A stretch of DNA of 64,000 bases, taken from contig NZ_CP108882.1 of the NCBI RefSeq assembly GCF_036347055.1, forward strand, positions 2,617,001 through 2,681,000. The letters run 5' to 3'. Origin of the DNA: Streptomyces sp. NBC_00820. GTDB taxonomy: Bacteria > Actinomycetota > Actinomycetes > Streptomycetales > Streptomycetaceae. Positions 4,050 to 40,912 of this stretch are shown here, in pieces. The number at the start of each line of letters is the position of its first letter. Position 1 is the first letter of the stretch. A program made the position numbers and the translations under genes. Below the pieces are notes generated by a model. The model saw only the letters and a program-made list of their open reading frames with translations. It ran no database searches and was not told where the DNA came from.

Positions 4050-4458
4050 GGCAGACGAGTCGGGCTGTACGCCGGGTTCTGTCCCGGAGGTCCTCGCGGG
4101 CCTTCCGGTGACGGCCATCCATCTAGGACCGGCGTTGCCGCCGGTCTCGTGCGGTCTACCCGCGGACTCGGGCGGGCAGCCCTCGATCGTCCGCGCAGAA
4201 ACACCGGGGTGTTTCCTTTTGACCTTGCTCCGGGTGGGGTTTACCTAGCTGCCCAGGTCACCCTGGGCACTGGTGGTCTCTTACACCACCGTTTCACCCT
4301 TACCGAGGGCCGAAGCCCCCGGCGGTCTGTTTTCTGTGGCACTGTCCCGCGGGTCACCCCGGGTGGCCGTTAGCCACCACCTTGCCCTGTGGAGCCCGGA
4401 CGTTCCTCGGGAAGCCCCCTAGGGGGACTCCACGCGGCCGTCCGCCCGGCTCGTCTGC
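4050..4458 (-). ncRNA. rnpB: RNase P RNA (bacterial type A)
   Basis: Read on the minus strand, the 5' end GCAGACGAG pairs with the 3' end CTCGTCTGC to form helix P1. Between them are the conserved cores: GAGGAACGTCCGGGCTCCAC (P4 5' strand and CR-I) near the 5' end, the AGATGGATGGCCGTC region, and ACAGAACCCGGCGTACAG (CR-V/P4 3' strand) near the 3' end. The length of about 409 nt fits Streptomyces type A RNase P RNA, the ribozyme that matures tRNA 5' ends. The 5' 40 nt overlap the end of the EamA permease gene on the same strand. The RNA therefore needs a promoter inside that coding sequence or is processed from a shared transcript. Confidence 0.97.
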
Positions 4459-32491: not shown

Positions 32492-33145
32492 ATGCCTGCG
32501 CGATCCAAGGCGGAACCCAGTAGCGTCCGGCCCCCTTCGGCGCCCCTCACCGAGCGGCAGGAGGCCCGCCGCCGCCGGATCCTGCACGCGAGCGCGGAAC
32601 TGGCCTGCCGGGGCGGCTTCGACGCCGTGCAGATGCGCGAGGTCGCCGAGTCCTCACAGGTGGCCCTCGGCACGCTGTACCGCTACTTCCCGTCCAAGGT
32701 GCATCTGCTGGTCGCCACCATGCAGGACCAGCTGGAGCACCTGCACGGCACCCTGCGCAGACGGCCCCCCACGGGCGACAGCCCCGCCGAGCGGGTCGCC
32801 GAGACCCTGATGCGCGCCTTCCGCGCCCTGCGGCGCGACCCCCAACTCGCCGACGCCATGGTCCGCGCCCTCACTTTCGCCGACCGCAGCGTCTCCGCCG
32901 AGGTCGACCAGGTCTCGCGCCGGACCACGGCGATCATCCTGGACGCGACGGGCCTGACCGACCCGACCCCCGAGCAGCTCTCGGCGATCCGCGTCATCGA
33001 GCACACCTGGCACGCGGCCCTCATCACCTGGCTCTCGGGGCGCGCGTCGATCGCACAGGTGAAGACCGACATCGAGACGGTGTGCCGGCTGATCGACCTG
33101 ACGGCCCCGGACACCCCGGACCGATCCGGACCGACCCACCGGTGA
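32492..33145 (+). CDS. TetR/AcrR-family regulator, KstR-like
   Basis: A 217-aa repressor starting ATG at 32492. The N-terminal HTH contains the KstR-like stretch VQMREVAESSQVALGTLYRY followed by FPSKVHLLVATM; the helical C-terminal domain would bind the ligand. KstR controls sterol and lipid catabolism in mycobacteria and rhodococci through acyl-CoA-type ligands. Here there are no sterol-degradation genes nearby. The likely targets are its own gene and the divergent GT4-methyltransferase-toroid operon, because a KstR-type box lies between them. Assignment to TetR is firm; to the KstR subgroup is moderate. Confidence 0.92.
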   Translation: MPARSKAEPSSVRPPSAPLTERQEARRRRILHASAELACRGGFDAVQMREVAESSQVALGTLYRYFPSKVHLLVATMQDQLEHLHGTLRRRPPTGDSPAERVAETLMRAFRALRRDPQLADAMVRALTFADRSVSAEVDQVSRRTTAIILDATGLTDPTPEQLSAIRVIEHTWHAALITWLSGRASIAQVKTDIETVCRLIDLTAPDTPDRSGPTHR

Positions 33146-33808: not shown

Positions 33809-33911
33809 ACCGGTTCCGGGGCCCGTGCGCCCGTCTCGCGCGTGACCGCCGTCACTTCACTCCTGTGCCCACGGCCACTCCCCCGCCCCGTGTCGGCTCC
33901 CGGTAAAGTGG

Positions 33912-34030
33912 CCGGGTCGTCATCACACTCGTACGGGGGAAAGCCGGTGCAATTCCGGCGCTGACCCGCAACCGTGAGCCGCTCCCTTCCGGGCGGTGAG
34001 CCGGAATGCCTCGCACAGGACGTTGACCGG
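33912..34030 (+). promoter_or_regulatory. Cobalamin riboswitch
   Basis: The leader contains the canonical core GGGGAAAGCCGGTGC followed by AATTCCGGCGCTGACCCGCA and ACCGTGA (33935-33977), and a B12-box variant GAGCCGGAATGCCTCGC (33998-34014). This is the adenosyl/methyl-cobalamin aptamer class. The remaining leader to 34139 (about 110 nt, GC-rich, ending with a GGAGAGG ribosome site) would be the expression platform. It heads the five-gene ECF transport operon, so that operon should be shut off when cobalamin is abundant. Confidence 0.95.
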
Positions 34031-34139
34031 CTCGCGTGTGCGGCAGCCGCCGCGTACGACACCGTCGAGGTATACGGAGTCGAGCCGCCCGGGTCCTCCC
34101 GTGCGCTGCCGGCTCCCGCAGGAGAGGCAGTCGCCGACC

Positions 34140-35357
34140 ATGAACGTCCGCCGCAGTGCCGCGGCTCTCGCCGCCATAGGCGTGCTGGCCGCCGCCGCAC
34201 CCGCCATGGCCGCCGACCCGTCGTCGTCCACGTCCCCGAAGGTGACGATCCCGGCCGGGCTGTTCGGCAAGACCGACCCGACCTACGACGGCGTGTGGCG
34301 CCAGTCGCTGGCCCTGATCGCCCAGAAGACCGTCGGTGAGCGTCCCGCCGCCTCGGCCGTCGACTGGCTGGCCGGACAGCAGTGCGCCGACGGCGGCTTC
34401 GCCGCGTTCCGCGCGGACCCGGCCAAGGCCTGCGGGGGCAAGGCCGGTGCCCAGCCGGACACCAACAGCACCGCCGCCGCCGTTCAGGCGCTGAAGGCGG
34501 TCGGCTCGCACGACGGCGAGGTCCGCAAGGCCGTCACCTGGCTGAATTCCGCCCAGGACAAGGACGGCGGCTGGGGCTACATGCCGGGCGGCCCGAGCGA
34601 CACCAACTCCACGTCGGTCGTCGTCGGCGCCCTGAACGTCGCCGGTGAGAGCGCCGGCGGACTGCGCGCCAAGGGCAAGACCCCCGGCGACGCCCTGGCC
34701 GCCCTGGCCCTGCCCTGCTCCGCGGTCGGCGGCGGCTCCTTCGCCTACCAGCCGGACAAGAAGGGCAAGCTGGCCGCCAACGCGGACGCGACCGCGGCCG
34801 GCGTGCTCGGCGCCCTCGGCAAGGGCTTCGTCGTGGAGCCCGGCAAGGCCCACGGCAAGGCCCCCGCCTGCGCCTCGGGCAAGGCCACCCCGGCGCGACT
34901 GGCCGACAACGCCTCCGCCTACCTGGCCGGTGCCGTCGCCAAGAACGGCCACCTCATGTCGGTCATGCCCGGCGCCACGGACCAGCCCGACTTCGGCAAC
35001 ACGGCCGACACGGTCGTCGCGCTCGCCGCGGACGGCTGGACCGGGCAGGCGAAGAAGCCGTACGCCTGGCTGAAGAAGAACGCCGTGGCCTGGGCCGCGC
35101 AGAGCGGTCCGGCCGCCTACTCCCAGCTGATCCTCACCGCCCACGCGATGGGCGAGCAGCCGCGTGACTTCGGTGGCACGGACCTCGTGAAGGCGCTCGA
35201 CAAGCTGGGTCCGGCCCCGCAGCAGGCCACCAAGCACGAGGAGAAGGCCGCGAAGAAGGACTCCGGCACCGGCGTGTGGTGGATCGTCGGCGTCGGCCTG
35301 GTCTTCGGCATCGGCATCGGCTTCCTGCTCAGCGGCCGCAAGAAGCGCCGGCCGTGA
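34140..35357 (+). CDS. Membrane-anchored extracellular alpha/alpha-toroid protein (SCO2321-like), putative cobalamin-binding
   Basis: A 405-aa protein starting ATG at 34140 with GGAGAGG upstream. Signal peptide (residues 1-24, cleaved after AMA), then prenyltransferase/squalene-oxidase-type helical repeats (SAVDWLAGQQCADGGFAAF, AVTWLNSAQDKDGGWGYMPG, DTNSTAAAVQALKAV and DTNSTSVVVGALNV), a Lys/Glu stalk, and a C-terminal membrane helix (GVWWIVGVGLVFGIGIGFLL) with a basic end. Displayed outside and anchored. The alpha6/alpha6 toroid is the fold of the main domain of intrinsic factor and transcobalamin. Being the first gene under a cobalamin riboswitch and coupled to an ECF importer, it is best read as a B12-capture protein; binding is inferred. 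Confidence 0.9.
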   Translation: MNVRRSAAALAAIGVLAAAAPAMAADPSSSTSPKVTIPAGLFGKTDPTYDGVWRQSLALIAQKTVGERPAASAVDWLAGQQCADGGFAAFRADPAKACGGKAGAQPDTNSTAAAVQALKAVGSHDGEVRKAVTWLNSAQDKDGGWGYMPGGPSDTNSTSVVVGALNVAGESAGGLRAKGKTPGDALAALALPCSAVGGGSFAYQPDKKGKLAANADATAAGVLGALGKGFVVEPGKAHGKAPACASGKATPARLADNASAYLAGAVAKNGHLMSVMPGATDQPDFGNTADTVVALAADGWTGQAKKPYAWLKKNAVAWAAQSGPAAYSQLILTAHAMGEQPRDFGGTDLVKALDKLGPAPQQATKHEEKAAKKDSGTGVWWIVGVGLVFGIGIGFLLSGRKKRRP

Positions 35358-36034
35358 CCGCCGTCCGCCGTGCCGCGACCGTGCTGGTCGCCGCGTTCGT
35401 CCTCGTGGCCGGCGCCGCCCAGGCGCACGCCACCGGCTACCGCTACTGGTCCTTCTGGGAGCGGACCGGCGGTCACTGGGCCTACGCCACGCAGGGGCCG
35501 TCGACCGACCGTCCCGACGACGGCAGCGTCCAGGGCTTCCGGTTCGCGGTCAGCGAGGACTCCGCGGACGCGACCCGGCCGCGCGGCACGGCGGACTTCA
35601 GCACCATCTGCGCGGACACGTCCGCGAAGCCGGGGACGAAGCGGATCGCCCTGGTCATCGACTTCGGCACCGCGACGGACGCCCCGGCCGGCGAGACCCC
35701 GCCCGGCGGCCGCACGGCCTGCGCCCGCGTCGCTCCCGAGGCGAGCACGGCCGCAGCCCTGGCCACGGTCGCCAAACCGCTGCGCTACGACACCAACGCC
35801 CTGCTCTGCGCCATCTCCGGCTACCCGCACCAGGGCTGCGGGGAGCAGGTGGCGGCGGACGGCGCCCAGAAGGACGCGCACAAGAAGAAGGGGAGCGCTT
35901 CGGCCCGGGAAGCCGCTCAGGGGAAGACGGACACGGACGGCGGTCCTTCGCTGGGCCTGCCGATCGGCGCGGGCGTCGTCGCGCTCCTGGCCGGGGCGGC
36001 CGTGTGGCAGGCCCGGCGGCGCCGGAATGCCTGA
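35354..36034 (+). CDS. SCO2322-family membrane-anchored extracellular protein
   Basis: A 226-aa protein starting GTG at 35354, overlapping the toroid-gene stop (GTGA). A signal peptide (AATVLVAAFVLVAGAAQAHA) precedes a ~130-residue extracellular domain beginning YRYWSFWERTGGHWAYATQG and containing four cysteines (TICADT, TACARV, ALLCAISGYPHQGCG) that could form two disulfides. A Lys-rich stalk and a C-terminal membrane helix with RRRR follow. The layout mirrors the preceding protein. Its invariable place between the toroid protein and the EcfT component suggests the pair act together on cobalamin capture or handover. No enzyme motif is visible. Confidence 0.88.
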   Translation: MTAVRRAATVLVAAFVLVAGAAQAHATGYRYWSFWERTGGHWAYATQGPSTDRPDDGSVQGFRFAVSEDSADATRPRGTADFSTICADTSAKPGTKRIALVIDFGTATDAPAGETPPGGRTACARVAPEASTAAALATVAKPLRYDTNALLCAISGYPHQGCGEQVAADGAQKDAHKKKGSASAREAAQGKTDTDGGPSLGLPIGAGVVALLAGAAVWQARRRRNA

Positions 36035-37436
36035 CCCCGGCGGCGGCCCCGGCCCGGCGTCCCACCCCGGCCCGGCTGAACGCCACCCGGCCGCGAGTGC
36101 CTCGGAGCCGCCCGCGCGGGCCGCGGCACCCCTGGGGAGTCGTACCGCCGTGGAGCGTACGGCCGTGAACCGTACGGCCGTGAACCGTACGGCTGTGGAG
36201 CGTACGGCGGCCGTGGAGCGTGCGGCCGCCCGTACCGCCGGGCCGCCCCGCCCGGACAGGGCCGGCGGCCTCGGCGCGGCCGCGGGGATTCCCGCCGCCC
36301 GCAGGGAGCCTGGCGCGGAAAAGGCACCCCGCGAACGCGGGCCCGTGCCACGCCGGTACCGCGCACCCCTGCACCCCGGCGCCTGGTGGCTGTGGTCGCT
36401 CGGGCTCGGTACGGCCGCCACCCGGACCACCAACCCCCTCCTCCTGGCCCTCCTGATTGCCGTGGCGGGCTATGTGGTGGCCACTCACCGCTCCACCGCC
36501 CCCTGGGCACGCTCCTACACCGCCTTCGCCAAGCTCGCCGTCGCCGTCCTGTTCATCCGGATCGCCTTCACGGTCGTCCTGGGCTCCCCCATTCCGGGCA
36601 CGCACGTCCTGTTCACACTCCCCGAGGTCCCGCTCCCGCAGTGGGCGCAGGGCATCCGCCTGGGCGGCGAGGTCACCGCGGAGGCGCTCCTCTTCTCCGG
36701 CTACAACGGCCTGAAGCTGGCCGCCCTCCTCATCTGCGTCGGCGCCGCCAACGCCCTCGCCTCCCCGGCGCGCCTGCTGAAGTCCCTGCCCGGCGCCCTG
36801 TACGAGGCGGGCGTGGCCGTGGTCGTCGCCCTCACCTTCGCGCCGCATCTCATCGCCGACGTCCAGCGTCTGCGCGCGGCCCGCCGGCTGCGCGGGCGCC
36901 CGGACCGGGGAGTGCGGGGGCTGCTCCAGGTCGGGCTGCCGGTCCTGGAGGGCGCGCTGGAGCGCTCGGTCGCGCTCGCCGCCGCGATGGACGCCCGCGG
37001 GTACGGCCGTACCGCCGATGTCGCCCCCTCCGTGCGCCGTACGACGGCCGCGCTCACCCTCGGCGGGCTGCTCGGGGTGTGCGCCGGGACGTACGGGCTG
37101 CTCACCGCGGAGGGCGGCACGTACGGGATTCCGGTGCTGCTCGCCGGGGTTGCCGCCGCGCTCGCGGGGCTGCGGCTCGGCGGGCGCCGTTCGGCACGCA
37201 CCCGGTACCGGCCGGAGCCGTGGGGGCCGCGGGCGTGGCTGGTGGCGGGCTCGGGCGCCGGGGTGGCCGCGCTGCTCACCCTCGCCTCGGTCCGCGACGC
37301 GGACGCGCTGCACCCCGGGGTGGTCCCGCTGGTCGCCCCCGCCCTTCCGCTCTGGCCGGCCGCGGCCGTGCTGCTCGCCCTGCTGCCCGCCTTCGCCGTC
37401 CGCCAGGACTTCCAGGACTCCAAGGAGCCGTCGTGA
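36027..37436 (+). CDS. ECF transporter T component (EcfT/CbiQ family)
   Basis: A 469-aa membrane protein starting ATG at 36027 inside the end of the previous gene (8-bp overlap). The first ~110 residues are a disordered Ala/Arg/Pro extension containing five RTAVxR-type repeats (36130-36230), absent from typical EcfT. The core has several membrane helices and the coupling-helix motifs RRLRGRPDRGVRG and AAAMDARGYGR, whose X-R-G signatures contact the ATPases. EcfT transmits ATP hydrolysis to the substrate-binding S component. Extra hydrophobic segments follow the canonical domain. Coupled to EcfA downstream. Confidence 0.92.
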   Translation: MPDPGGGPGPASHPGPAERHPAASASEPPARAAAPLGSRTAVERTAVNRTAVNRTAVERTAAVERAAARTAGPPRPDRAGGLGAAAGIPAARREPGAEKAPRERGPVPRRYRAPLHPGAWWLWSLGLGTAATRTTNPLLLALLIAVAGYVVATHRSTAPWARSYTAFAKLAVAVLFIRIAFTVVLGSPIPGTHVLFTLPEVPLPQWAQGIRLGGEVTAEALLFSGYNGLKLAALLICVGAANALASPARLLKSLPGALYEAGVAVVVALTFAPHLIADVQRLRAARRLRGRPDRGVRGLLQVGLPVLEGALERSVALAAAMDARGYGRTADVAPSVRRTTAALTLGGLLGVCAGTYGLLTAEGGTYGIPVLLAGVAAALAGLRLGGRRSARTRYRPEPWGPRAWLVAGSGAGVAALLTLASVRDADALHPGVVPLVAPALPLWPAAAVLLALLPAFAVRQDFQDSKEPS

Positions 37437-39241
37437 TCCGCTTCGAGGAGGTCAGCGTCACCTACGAGGGCGCGGCCGGACCGACCGTCCGGGACGTGGA
37501 CTTCGAGGTGCCCGAGGGTGAGCTGGTGCTGCTCGTCGGGCCGTCCGGGGTGGGCAAGTCGACCGTGCTGGGCGCGGTCAGCGGGCTGGTCCCGCACTTC
37601 ACCGGCGGCACCCTGCGCGGCCGGGTCACGGTGGCGGGCCGGGACACCCGAACGCACAAGCCGCGTGAGCTCGCCGACGTGGTCGGCACGGTGGGGCAGG
37701 ACCCGCTCGCGCACTTCGTGACGGACACGGTGGAGGACGAGCTGGCCTACGGCATGGAGTCGCTGGGGCTCGCCCCGGCGGTGATGCGGCGCCGGGTGGA
37801 GGAGACGCTGGACCTGCTGGGCCTGGCCGACCTGCGCGGCCGCCCGATCGCCACGCTCTCCGGCGGCCAGCGGCAGCGGGTCGCGATCGGCTCGGTCCTC
37901 ACCCCGCACCCTCAGGTGCTGGTGCTGGACGAGCCCACCTCGGCGCTCGACCCGGCCGCGGCGGAGGAGGTCCTGGCCGTCCTGCAGCGCCTCGTCCACG
38001 ACCTCGGTACGACGGTCCTGCTGGCCGAGCACCGCCTGGAACGCGTGATCCAGTACGCCGACCAGGTCGTCCTCCTCCCCGCTCCCGGCGCCGCCCCGCT
38101 CCTCGGCACCCCGTCCGAGGTGATGGCGGTGTCCCCGGTGTGCCCGCCGGTGGTGGAGCTGGGCCGCCTGGCCGGCTGGACCCCGCTCCCGCTGACCGTC
38201 CGCGACGCGCGCCGCCGCGCGGGAGACCTCCGGGACCGGCTGGCCGGGATGCGGGAGGCCCGGGCGGCGGAGGCGACGGAGACGGCGGACGTGACGGACG
38301 CGACGCAGACGGTGCGGGAGCGTCCGGGCGGGCCGGAGTCCGCCGGCGAGCGGCAACGGCCGCCGCGACAGGCTCCCGCCCCCACGAGCCACTCTCACGC
38401 ACCCGCTCCCGCTTCCCCGCCCGCTCCCACTCCCACTCCCCGGCGGCGTCTCTTCCGGCGGGCCACCGCCCCCACGGCCGCCGCTCCCGCACAGGTCGCC
38501 GAGGTCCGCGCCCTGGCCGTCCGGCGGGGGCGGGTGGACGCGCTGCGGTACATCGACCTGACCGTGGCCCCCGGGGAGACCGTCGCGCTGATGGGGCGCA
38601 ACGGTGCCGGGAAGTCCACGCTGCTCGGGTCGCTGGTGGGGCTGGTGGAGCCGACCGCCGGGTCGGTCCGGGTCGGCGGGGCGGTGCCGCACCGCATCTC
38701 GCCGCAGGAGCTCGTCCGCCGGGTCGGCCTCGTCCCGCAGGAGCCGCGCGACCTGCTGTACGCGGACACGGTGGCCGCCGAGTGCGCGGCCGCCGACCGG
38801 GACGCGGGCGCCGCGCCCGGTACCTGCCGCGCCCTGGTGTCGGGGCTGCTGCCGGACATCACGGACGACACGCATCCCCGCGACCTCTCCGAGGGCCAGC
38901 GGCTGGCGCTCGCCCTGGCGGTCGTCCTGACCGCCCGCCCTCCGCTGCTGCTGCTCGACGAGCCGACGCGCGGTCTGGACTACGCGGCGAAGGCCCGCCT
39001 GGTCGGGGTGCTGCGCGAGCTGGCCGGGGAGGGGCACGCGATCGTGCTGGCCACCCATGACGTGGAGCTGGCCGCCGAGATCGCCCACCGGGTGGTGCTG
39101 CTCGCCGACGGCGAGGTGATCGCCGACGGCCCGACGGCCGAGACCGTGGTCTCCTCGCCGTCCTTCGCCCCCCAGGTCACCAAGATCCTGGCCCCGCAGC
39201 CCTGGCTGACGGTGGCGGAGGTCCGGGAGGCCCTGGCATGA
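37433..39241 (+). CDS. Fused double ECF ATPase (EcfA-EcfA')
   Basis: A 602-aa protein with two ATPase domains. Domain 1 (residues 1-240) has LLVGPSGVGKSTVLGA, Q-loop GTVGQDPLAHF, LSGGQRQRVAIGS and VLVLDEPTSALD. A ~115-residue Pro/Ala/His-rich linker follows. Domain 2 (from ~360) has ALMGRNGAGKSTLLGS, GLVPQEPRDLL, a variant signature LSEGQRLALALA and LLLLDEPTRGLD, with the switch His in LATHDVE. In other ECF systems the two ATPases are separate; fusion fixes their pairing. GTG at 37433 overlaps the EcfT stop and has AAGGAG upstream. It energises the cobalamin uptake complex. Confidence 0.95.
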   Translation: MIRFEEVSVTYEGAAGPTVRDVDFEVPEGELVLLVGPSGVGKSTVLGAVSGLVPHFTGGTLRGRVTVAGRDTRTHKPRELADVVGTVGQDPLAHFVTDTVEDELAYGMESLGLAPAVMRRRVEETLDLLGLADLRGRPIATLSGGQRQRVAIGSVLTPHPQVLVLDEPTSALDPAAAEEVLAVLQRLVHDLGTTVLLAEHRLERVIQYADQVVLLPAPGAAPLLGTPSEVMAVSPVCPPVVELGRLAGWTPLPLTVRDARRRAGDLRDRLAGMREARAAEATETADVTDATQTVRERPGGPESAGERQRPPRQAPAPTSHSHAPAPASPPAPTPTPRRRLFRRATAPTAAAPAQVAEVRALAVRRGRVDALRYIDLTVAPGETVALMGRNGAGKSTLLGSLVGLVEPTAGSVRVGGAVPHRISPQELVRRVGLVPQEPRDLLYADTVAAECAAADRDAGAAPGTCRALVSGLLPDITDDTHPRDLSEGQRLALALAVVLTARPPLLLLDEPTRGLDYAAKARLVGVLRELAGEGHAIVLATHDVELAAEIAHRVVLLADGEVIADGPTAETVVSSPSFAPQVTKILAPQPWLTVAEVREALA

Positions 39242-40164
39242 CCACTGACACGAACACGGGCACGGGCGCGGGCGCGGGCCCAGGCACAGACACGGGTACG
39301 ACCCCCGTGCGGACCCCCGTGCGCGCCCGCGAACGGACCCCCGAGCGGCGCCGTCCCGTGCGCGCCGTCCCGCTCGGTCCCCGTTCCCTCGCCGCGCTCG
39401 CGCTGGTGAGTGCCGTCGGTGTGGTCGCCTTCGGGTGGCCCTTCCTCGCTCCGCCCGCGTCCCGGCTGAGCGCGCACGCCGAGGACGCGCCCTGGCTCTT
39501 CGCCGGGCTGCTGGTGCTGCTGGTCGCGGTCGTGACGGCGACGATCTCCGAGTCCGGTCTGGGGCCGAAGGCCGTGGCCATGCTGGGTGTGCTGGCGGCG
39601 ACCGGGGCCGCGCTGCGCCCGATCGGCGCGGGCACCGCCGGGATCGAGCCGATGTTCTTCCTGCTGGTGCTCAGCGGCCGGGTGCTGGGACCGGGCTTCG
39701 GCTTCGTGCTCGGCTCGGTGACGATGTTCGCCTCCGCGCTGCTCACCGGCGGGGTCGGCCCCTGGATGCCGTTCCAGATGCTGGCGATGGGCTGGTTCAC
39801 CATGGGCGCGGGCCTGCTGCCGGGCCAGGGCCGCCTGCGCGGCCGGGGCGAACTGCTGCTGCTGGCCGGCTACGGCTTCCTCGCGGCCTTCGCCTACGGC
39901 ACGATCATGAACCTGGCCGGCTGGCCCTTCATGGGCACCCTGGCCTCGAACATCGCCTTCGACCCGCACGCCGCGGTCCCCGCCAACCTGGCCCGTTTCG
40001 CCGCCTACTGCCTGGCCACCTCCATGGGCTGGGACCTCGGCCGCGCGATCTGCACGGTCGTCCTCACCCTGGCCCTCGGCCCGGCGGTGCTGCGCGCGCT
40101 GCGCCGGGCCACACGCCGGGCCGCTTTCGAGACCGCGGTCACATTCGACGCACCCGGAGCGTGA
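39238..40164 (+). CDS. ECF transporter S component, predicted cobalamin-specific
   Basis: A 308-aa protein starting ATG at 39238, overlapping the EcfA stop by ATGA. After a ~45-residue hydrophilic Thr/Gly/Arg-rich N-terminus come about six membrane helices (SLAALALVSAVGVVAFGWPF, WLFAGLLVLLVAVVTATIS, MFFLLVLSGRVLGPGFGFVL, GPWMPFQMLAMGWFTMGAGL, FAYGTIMNLAGWPFMG). The GPWMPFQMLAMGW segment with conserved aromatic residues is typical of ECF S components that bind the vitamin in the membrane. The riboswitch at the operon head points to cobalamin or a corrinoid precursor rather than another vitamin. Last gene of the operon. Confidence 0.9.
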   Translation: MTTDTNTGTGAGAGPGTDTGTTPVRTPVRARERTPERRRPVRAVPLGPRSLAALALVSAVGVVAFGWPFLAPPASRLSAHAEDAPWLFAGLLVLLVAVVTATISESGLGPKAVAMLGVLAATGAALRPIGAGTAGIEPMFFLLVLSGRVLGPGFGFVLGSVTMFASALLTGGVGPWMPFQMLAMGWFTMGAGLLPGQGRLRGRGELLLLAGYGFLAAFAYGTIMNLAGWPFMGTLASNIAFDPHAAVPANLARFAAYCLATSMGWDLGRAICTVVLTLALGPAVLRALRRATRRAAFETAVTFDAPGA

Positions 40165-40498
40165 GGGGTCGTATCCGCGCGGTCAGGGAAGCGGTGAAGC
40201 ACCCCACATGACCCACGTCACCTACGGCCGGACTTAGTAGTCCCAAATGTCCGATACATCCTTTTTATCACCCCGCTGACCTGCGGTTTGCGACCCAGGT
40301 CACACAGGTTGAAAGAACCACGACTCCGGCCACAACTAGTAAAAGGGGTCATTGCGGACATTCCGGATGGCTGCTTCTCTGGATGAGTCGCCAGGCGCCA
40401 CGAGCCCATACGGGCCGCGGCGCCGACGTATGCACCGGCCGCACGAGTGGCTCGGGCTTACGGGCGAATCAATGTCTCCGAACGCAAAGGGTTTTTTC
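40165..40498 (+). promoter_or_regulatory. Intergenic region with structured leader of the SLT-like gene
   Basis: No gene is seen in these 334 bp. TGACCTG-N12-CAGGTCA (40277-40302) is a perfect inverted repeat that could be an operator. Closer to the gene, CGAGCC (40401-40406) pairs with GGCTCG (40449-40454), enclosing ATACG/CGTAT (40408-40412, 40427-40431) and an inner GGC/GCC pair. This nested hairpin is in the transcribed leader if the promoter lies upstream near 40330. It does not match the ydaO (c-di-AMP) consensus often found before Streptomyces wall hydrolases. Confidence 0.5.
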
Positions 40499-40912
40499 GT
40501 GTCCGTTTCTTTCATCCGCCGCATCGCTTCTCCGAAGAAGGCTCTCGCCTCCGCCGCCGTGGCTGCCGCCGCTGCCGGCCTGGCGATCTCCGCGGCGCCC
40601 GCTCAGGCCGCCACCGGTTCGGCCTCCTCCGCTCAGTCGATCGCGCACCAGATGATCCCGGACGCCGCTCAGTACAACGCGTTCAACAAGATCGTCTCGC
40701 ACGAGAGTGGCTGGAACCCCTCCGCCACCAACAGCTCGTCCGGTGCCTACGGTCTGGTCCAGGCCCTGCCGGGCTCGAAGATGGCCTCGGCCGGCTCCGA
40801 CTGGAAGACCAACCCGGCCACCCAGATCAAGTGGGGCCTCAACTACATGAACTCCCGCTACGGCAGCCCCGTCCAGGCGTGGAACTTCTGGCAGACCAAC
40901 CACTGGTACTAA
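40499..40912 (+). CDS. Small secreted SLT-like lytic transglycosylase
   Basis: A 137-aa protein. GTG at 40499 is preferred because AAAGGG lies 8 nt upstream; an in-frame ATG at 40472 would add nine residues. A signal peptide (KKALASAAVAAAAAGLAISA then APAQA) precedes a single SLT-type domain: FNKIVSHESGWNPSATNSSS contains the catalytic Glu in the E-S-G-W-N motif, followed by SGAYGLVQALPGSKM and QIKWGLNYMNSRYGSPVQAW. It is a minimal soluble lytic transglycosylase-like enzyme that should cut peptidoglycan glycan strands outside the cell. Confidence 0.92.
   Translation: MSVSFIRRIASPKKALASAAVAAAAAGLAISAAPAQAATGSASSAQSIAHQMIPDAAQYNAFNKIVSHESGWNPSATNSSSGAYGLVQALPGSKMASAGSDWKTNPATQIKWGLNYMNSRYGSPVQAWNFWQTNHWY

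Follow-up and report, generated by a model that had tools for sequence, protein, structure and literature searches.

Several kinds of protein system capture or import vitamin B12 in ways that resemble the locus described here. The animal B12 carriers intrinsic factor, transcobalamin and haptocorrin (PDB 2pmv, 8ixt and 4kki) each join an alpha/alpha toroid to a small beta-grasp domain. For bacteria, Burroughs et al. (2007), who defined the SLBB superfamily, predicted B12 scavenging by transcobalamin-like proteins, which often occur with a toroid and with CbiO and CbiQ genes (PMC1796856; papers are cited here for the passages concerned). Here we describe an operon of Streptomyces sp. NBC_00820, lying in a 64,000-nt stretch (hereafter the window; NZ_CP108882.1, positions 2,617,001-2,681,000, forward strand, assembly GCF_036347055.1), in which a cobalamin riboswitch precedes genes for a putatively secreted and anchored toroid of the SCO2321 family, a second such protein of the SCO2322 family and an energy-coupling factor (ECF) importer. 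We think it quite probable that this operon is a scavenging system for a corrinoid, in the first place cobalamin, with a permuted two-chain surface trap feeding the ECF importer.

Because Burroughs et al. (2007) predicted B12 scavengers with a toroid and a transcobalamin-like domain next to CbiO and CbiQ, the kind of system is already known by prediction (PMC1796856). The window and the SLBB transcobalamin-like clade share a putatively secreted and anchored protein with a predicted beta-grasp domain and a toroid in an operon with a CbiO-like ATPase and a CbiQ-like membrane protein; paralogous surface proteins within one operon are a further point of likeness (PMC1796856). That clade was listed in animals, low-GC Gram-positives, planctomycetes and euryarchaea (PMC1796856). 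In the text of that paper, supplements and figures aside, the strings 'riboswitch', 'permut', 'circular' and 'Streptomyces' were not found, and the one use of 'actinobacteria' refers to ComEA; Mycobacterium sp. appears in a figure legend, in a passage that does not state its clade (PMC1796856). What the window adds is an actinobacterial branch, its division between two anchored chains, the permutations proposed below, the riboswitch link and a proposed role for SCO2321 and SCO2322. A description of the toroid/SCO2322 pair was not found in the open-access papers searched, where nothing turned up for SCO2322 and the single paper for SCO2321 concerns a transdermal peptide; subscription papers may mention the pair earlier.

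To our knowledge, the ECF transporter class is held to need no extracellular binding protein. ECF-CbrT of Lactobacillus delbrueckii resembles the importer in the window in being an ECF-type cobalamin importer with a dedicated S component, but it functions in proteoliposomes without extracellular binding proteins (PMC5997447); the S component in the window differs in having no sequence match to solved chains. Surface-linked, high-affinity capture of B12 ahead of a transporter is found in BtuG and BtuJ of Bacteroides, which, unlike the proteins described here, have beta-propeller and jelly-roll folds (PMC6143338, PMC12751083).

The riboswitch operon and its conserved linkage

The preliminary description of this DNA had placed a cobalamin riboswitch ahead of five genes joined by overlaps, and this layout was borne out by an RF00174 match, corrected coordinates and family matches (Table 1). 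The gene order after the riboswitch is toroid, SCO2322 protein, EcfT, double EcfA and S component, each neighbouring pair overlapping. Gene starts were amended from the sequence. The ends of the surface proteins were judged by hydropathy alone; in each, hydrophobic segments lie at both termini, the C-terminal one followed by a basic tail. The host genome comprises 8.1 Mb in a single contig, and its nearest relatives in our searches were Streptomyces.

The aptamer match is significant both in a 601-base stretch (E 1.6e-5) and in the whole genome (E 5.2e-5), lies below the Rfam gathering cut-off and was not reported by a default Rfam scan of the window. Orthologous leaders in two other genomes pass the cut-off (40.9 bits in G161, 31.6 bits in G246), and the host genome has five RF00174 matches at E <= 0.001, the operon leader among them. 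When 30 Streptomyces leaders were aligned, two-sided compensatory changes were seen at 10 of 49 predicted pairs. The B12-box core is common to all 30, a conservation that is partly by construction, the 30 being drawn from 46 Streptomyces leaders picked by the core pattern. With this core, a significant covariance-model match and compensatory pairs, the leader is predicted to be of the RF00174 type. It may already be among the B12 riboswitches found before nine S. coelicolor genes or clusters (Borovok et al. 2006, as cited in PMC4991794). Among close Streptomyces relatives (the best 80 of 535 loci), a strict pattern found the core kept in 45, with 20 degenerate (a looser pattern of at most seven mismatches, which may include chance matches) and 15 in which it was not found; some leaders are visibly decayed. 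The riboswitch thus appears widespread but fading in part of Streptomyces. Between the aptamer and the start codon, the window (33914-34142) and leaders L006-L085 contain a conserved element, CACCGTCGAGG...GGAGCCGAGCC, whose GAGCCG could pair with the aptamer-closing CCGGCTC and form a possible expression platform.

The preliminary description had counted homologues mostly without B12 riboswitches or ECF genes as evidence against its proposal; across genomes, most homologues have this association. At E <= 0.001 the SCO2322 profile has hits in 44 of the 296 phylum genomes, 10 of which exceed the curated cut-off; in the family to which the window's genome belongs, it has hits in 51 of 61 genomes (47 above the cut-off). 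In 38 of the 44, an RF00174 match is present in the same orientation no more than 6 kb upstream; for this tally, split hits in G134 and G284 were merged, reducing 49 rows to 47, and nothing else was dropped. Three of the six genomes lacking a riboswitch have decayed leaders (G107, G193, G023), in two the operon reaches the contig end (G242, G002) and one has no match genome-wide (G225). A separate riboswitch scan with stricter filters loses weak RF00174 matches. Among 60 loci, which were picked for toroid or beta-domain hits and so show linkage, not frequency, the beta domain is present in 49, with ECF genes in 44 of these (the others being L150, L201, L204, L212 and L227) and a toroid in 39, leaving ten without. 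An S component also stands beside the toroid/SCO2322 pair in distant genomes.

This linkage bears on the idea that the surface proteins bind corrinoid so as to store it, control its sharing or deny it to competitors, and that the ECF importer works without them. ECF-CbrT does bind and transport cobalamin without an extracellular partner (PMC5997447), and additional beta or toroid copies with B12 boxes of their own occur in several genomes. Such a division of labour is nonetheless very unlikely, given the overlapping genes in a single operon, the membrane anchoring and the presence of the full gene set in 65 of the 66 close Streptomyces loci whose sequence extends far enough downstream.

The predicted SCO2322 beta domain, the toroid and their fused homologues

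The SCO2322 protein of the window matches NF040672 at 229 bits, GPS-CTERM at 25.6 bits (under the cut-off of 28) and no Pfam family. Its N-terminal hydrophobic (signal) segment is followed by a predicted, circularly permuted transcobalamin-type beta domain and a putative C-terminal anchor. An iterated profile of the unpermuted domain spans the entire domain in distant genomes, and 35 of 38 distinct unpermuted domains were aligned. On nine Streptomyces orthologues and one other genome (L095/L162), the same profile matched its C-terminal half first and then its N-terminal half, and in the distant genomes G134 and G284 both SCO2322 halves match in swapped order. Alignment of SCO2322 to the unpermuted profile with hhalign gave E 7.3e-12 over the B2 half (Table 1). 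Of 37 unpermuted domains, 34 have three internal cysteines and one or more just ahead of the first strand; SCO2322 keeps this pattern across the permutation, its four cysteines being residues 87, 124, 153 and 163 (numbered from 35351). Judged by profile order, the SCO2322 domain of the Streptomyces orthologues is a circular permutant of the unpermuted beta domain in distant relatives of the phylum.

The C-terminal region of transcobalamin is a DUF4430 domain (PMC4350170). In profile-profile comparison, the unpermuted profile matched bacterial DUF4430 (PF14478) with E 1.3e-4, probability 54 and a score of 30.8. By comparison, 100 column shuffles scored no higher than 16.8, a toroid alignment (A1) scored 21.7 and an S-component alignment (A7) 12.6. 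The DUF4430 profile itself gave four matches in the PDB at E up to 10, namely 3u7z (0.006), transcobalamin-1 (0.031), a SUI1 protein (0.32) and transcobalamin-2 (0.56). By these comparisons SCO2322 is a distant relative of DUF4430. We did not file it as a member: there is no match at the Pfam cut-off, and one of 35 unpermuted relatives matches, at E 0.12. The protein-database label for SCO2322 and some fused relatives is PF28005.

The toroid matches NF053823 at 584 bits as well as PF13243, PF00432 and PF13249. These Pfam matches mark it as a predicted alpha/alpha toroid, a fold seen in the modelled structure of a fused homologue only. Its best solved relatives by sequence profile are squalene-hopene cyclases, and it matches the protein prenyltransferase beta subunit weakly (E 9.9e-5). 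Class II terpene cyclases of the squalene-hopene type have the catalytic motif DxDD; the protein prenyltransferase beta subunit has zinc ligands and an alpha-subunit partner. No DxDD was found in the toroid, which carries two DTNST motifs and aligns a DTNS with the cyclase DVDD, and we rejected membership of the class II terpene cyclases. In best-match module order, 34 of 51 homologous toroids (the window's own left out) read T1-T2, 10 read T2-T1 as in the window (eight from Streptomyces, plus L149 and, doubtfully, L225) and 7 were unclear. The toroid, too, is probably a circular permutant by this tally, less firmly so than SCO2322, because toroids are repeat proteins and many module matches are weak (many T1 matches have 7 to 43 bits outside Streptomyces).

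Toroid and beta domain are fused in five homologous open frames with the same operon context; in the window they do not share a chain but are encoded by two overlapping genes. The predicted structure of one fused homologue is confident (pLDDT 92.6), and its ten best Foldseek matches among 350,542 PDB chains all come from transcobalamin entries. It also aligns with intrinsic factor and haptocorrin from the toroid through into the beta domain, which in this homologue is unpermuted. An rmsd near 21 over both domains reflects a relative domain placement that differs from that of the animal carriers. The window departs from these carriers further in having two separate anchored proteins, with the beta domain permuted, the toroid probably permuted and binding at the stage of prediction.

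The preliminary description had proposed that the two proteins form a split bacterial analogue of intrinsic factor and had named comparison of predicted structures as a check. For the fused homologue, the comparison gave a transcobalamin-like fold; the model of the window's SCO2322 protein has low confidence (pLDDT 55) and gave no useful structural match. The proposal is supported, with two corrections: the resemblance looks like homology of both domains and not analogy alone, and in general form the idea is already in print for other bacteria (PMC1796856). Closer kinship of the toroid to prenyltransferases, which had been named as fatal to the proposal, or to cyclases did not emerge for the fused homologue as a whole, although cyclases lead when its toroid alone is searched with Foldseek. 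This last result, together with the closest PDB sequence relatives, is what would favour an enzymatic toroid, of terpene cyclase or glycosidase type, with SCO2322 an unrelated wall protein. We regard that as extremely unlikely, since the toroid lacks DxDD, is secreted and membrane-anchored by hydropathy, has five homologues fused to the beta domain and is linked to B12 riboswitches even when apart from ECF genes: in G134, G102, G166 and G284 it lies away from the ECF operon yet under a B12 box of its own.

Other combinations of these domains were observed. Five loci (L225, L226, L228, L229, L230) have genes for a DUF4430 protein, a toroid and ECF ATPases, without an SCO2322-like domain. A second, unpermuted system in a Streptomyces genome (G171; L148, 5963-13134) comprises a B12 box, an unpermuted beta gene, EcfT-A-S, a toroid and a secreted stand-alone DUF4430 protein, and the arrangement in L261 is similar. 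Further beta or toroid copies occur in other Streptomycetaceae (L259, 8650-12768; L260; L262; L263), several with their own B12 boxes. Beta domain and toroid lie in one 1036-residue frame in L262; a 1373-residue frame in L259 has, by eye, a beta domain and then a toroid-like stretch.

A proposed surface trap and its ligand

EcfT matches PF02361 CbiQ (30.9 bits, cut-off 25), and the S component matches PF12822 (31.3 bits, cut-off 30.7). The double EcfA has two ABC_tran stretches and matches TIGR04521 at 290 bits, below the cut-off of 330, and also TIGR01166 cbiO. With EcfT, two ATPase domains and an S component, the genes are predicted to encode an ECF transporter. The CbiQ and cbiO matches would also suit a cobalt or nickel importer whose accessory surface proteins bind a metal chelate; in S. 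lividans, where two cobalamin riboswitches are listed, before cobalt transport and cobalamin biosynthesis genes, one of the two controls cobalt transport (PMC8079986). Metal import is very improbable in our view, the S component falling in the general PF12822 family and a transcobalamin-type beta domain having no expected role in it.

The ligand might also be an incomplete corrinoid or B12 building block such as cobinamide, the surface proteins then being corrinoid binders of other specificity. The genome encodes CbiC, so B12 synthesis is possible and precursors could be used; sequence searches of solved chains gave no credible relative for the S component, and CbrT itself also takes cobinamide (PMC5997447). 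We consider such a ligand unlikely: complete corrinoids suit the riboswitch family, and the matches of the fused homologue to transcobalamin, intrinsic factor and haptocorrin, no less well, and the difference from cobalamin scavenging is one of ligand detail only. Because CbiC is present, the operon may serve salvage in a B12 producer.

In the cobalamin-scavenging system that we propose, the riboswitch would leave the operon expressed when intracellular adenosylcobalamin is low and would repress it when the cofactor is plentiful, an off-switch direction that we infer. The toroid and the SCO2322 protein would be exported and held by their C-terminal anchors at the outer face of the membrane. 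The toroid would act as a cup and the beta domain as a lid, split and permuted versions of the two domains between which the animal carriers hold B12. Assembled from two chains, cup and lid would close on the corrinoid and pass it to the S component, and EcfT and the double ATPase would power uptake. We lean towards the more specific view that Streptomyces has a two-chain anchored B12 clamp, cup and lid both being circular permutants, that binds substrate outside the cell on behalf of an ECF importer. If so, two unassigned families, SCO2321 and SCO2322, would acquire a function, ECF import would include a capture step outside the cell, and the two-domain fold of the animal B12 carriers would have a rearranged relative in a cultivable, testable soil genus. 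Fused, split and permuted forms within one phylum would reveal how the clamp was cut and rewired, and the 2007 prediction of bacterial transcobalamin-like scavengers would become directly testable.

Features of the locus and its surroundings

Table 1. Predicted features of the operon and its leader, with positions in the window
Feature	Position	Strand	Basis
Possible promoter -10-like hexamer TAAAGT	33904..33909	+	TAAAGT, TAGAGT or TACAGT at the same place in most of the 46 Streptomyces leaders picked by the core pattern
Cobalamin riboswitch aptamer RF00174	33877..34028	+	29 bits vs gathering score 31.5
B12-box core GCCGGTGCAATTCCGGCGCTGACCCGCAACCGT	33943..33975	+	Read in the sequence; common to 30 aligned leaders
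SCO2321-family alpha/alpha toroid, secreted, C-terminal membrane anchor, 405 aa	34140..35357	+	NF053823, Pfam, hydropathy
Toroid module T2, residues 33-240, first in the window, second in most homologues tested	34236..34859	+	Best-match order
Toroid module T1, residues 243-360, second in the window, first in most homologues tested	34866..35219	+	Best-match order
SCO2322-family protein, 226 aa, GTG start, overlaps toroid stop	35354..36034	+	NF040672
Beta half B2 (YRYWSFW...GFRF), C-terminal in unpermuted homologues	35438..35545	+	Profile order
Beta half B1 (KRIALVIDFG...LLCAISGYPHQGCGE), N-terminal in unpermuted homologues	35639..35845	+	Profile order
EcfT transmembrane subunit	36027..37436	+	PF02361
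Double EcfA ATPase, two ABC domains in a single chain	37433..39241	+	Two ABC_tran stretches
S component	39238..40164	+	PF12822

The TAAAGT hexamer may be part of a promoter, going by the -10 consensus. Just 3' of the operon (window 40352-40912) lies a gene for a small secreted protein with a C-terminal segment that by eye is lytic-transglycosylase-like. A TetR-type regulator resembling the cholesterol regulator KstR (196 bits against a cut-off of 280) is encoded at 32492-33145, upstream of a SnoaL-like gene. The minus strand of the window carries an RNase P RNA of bacterial class A at 4052-4453 (296 bits).

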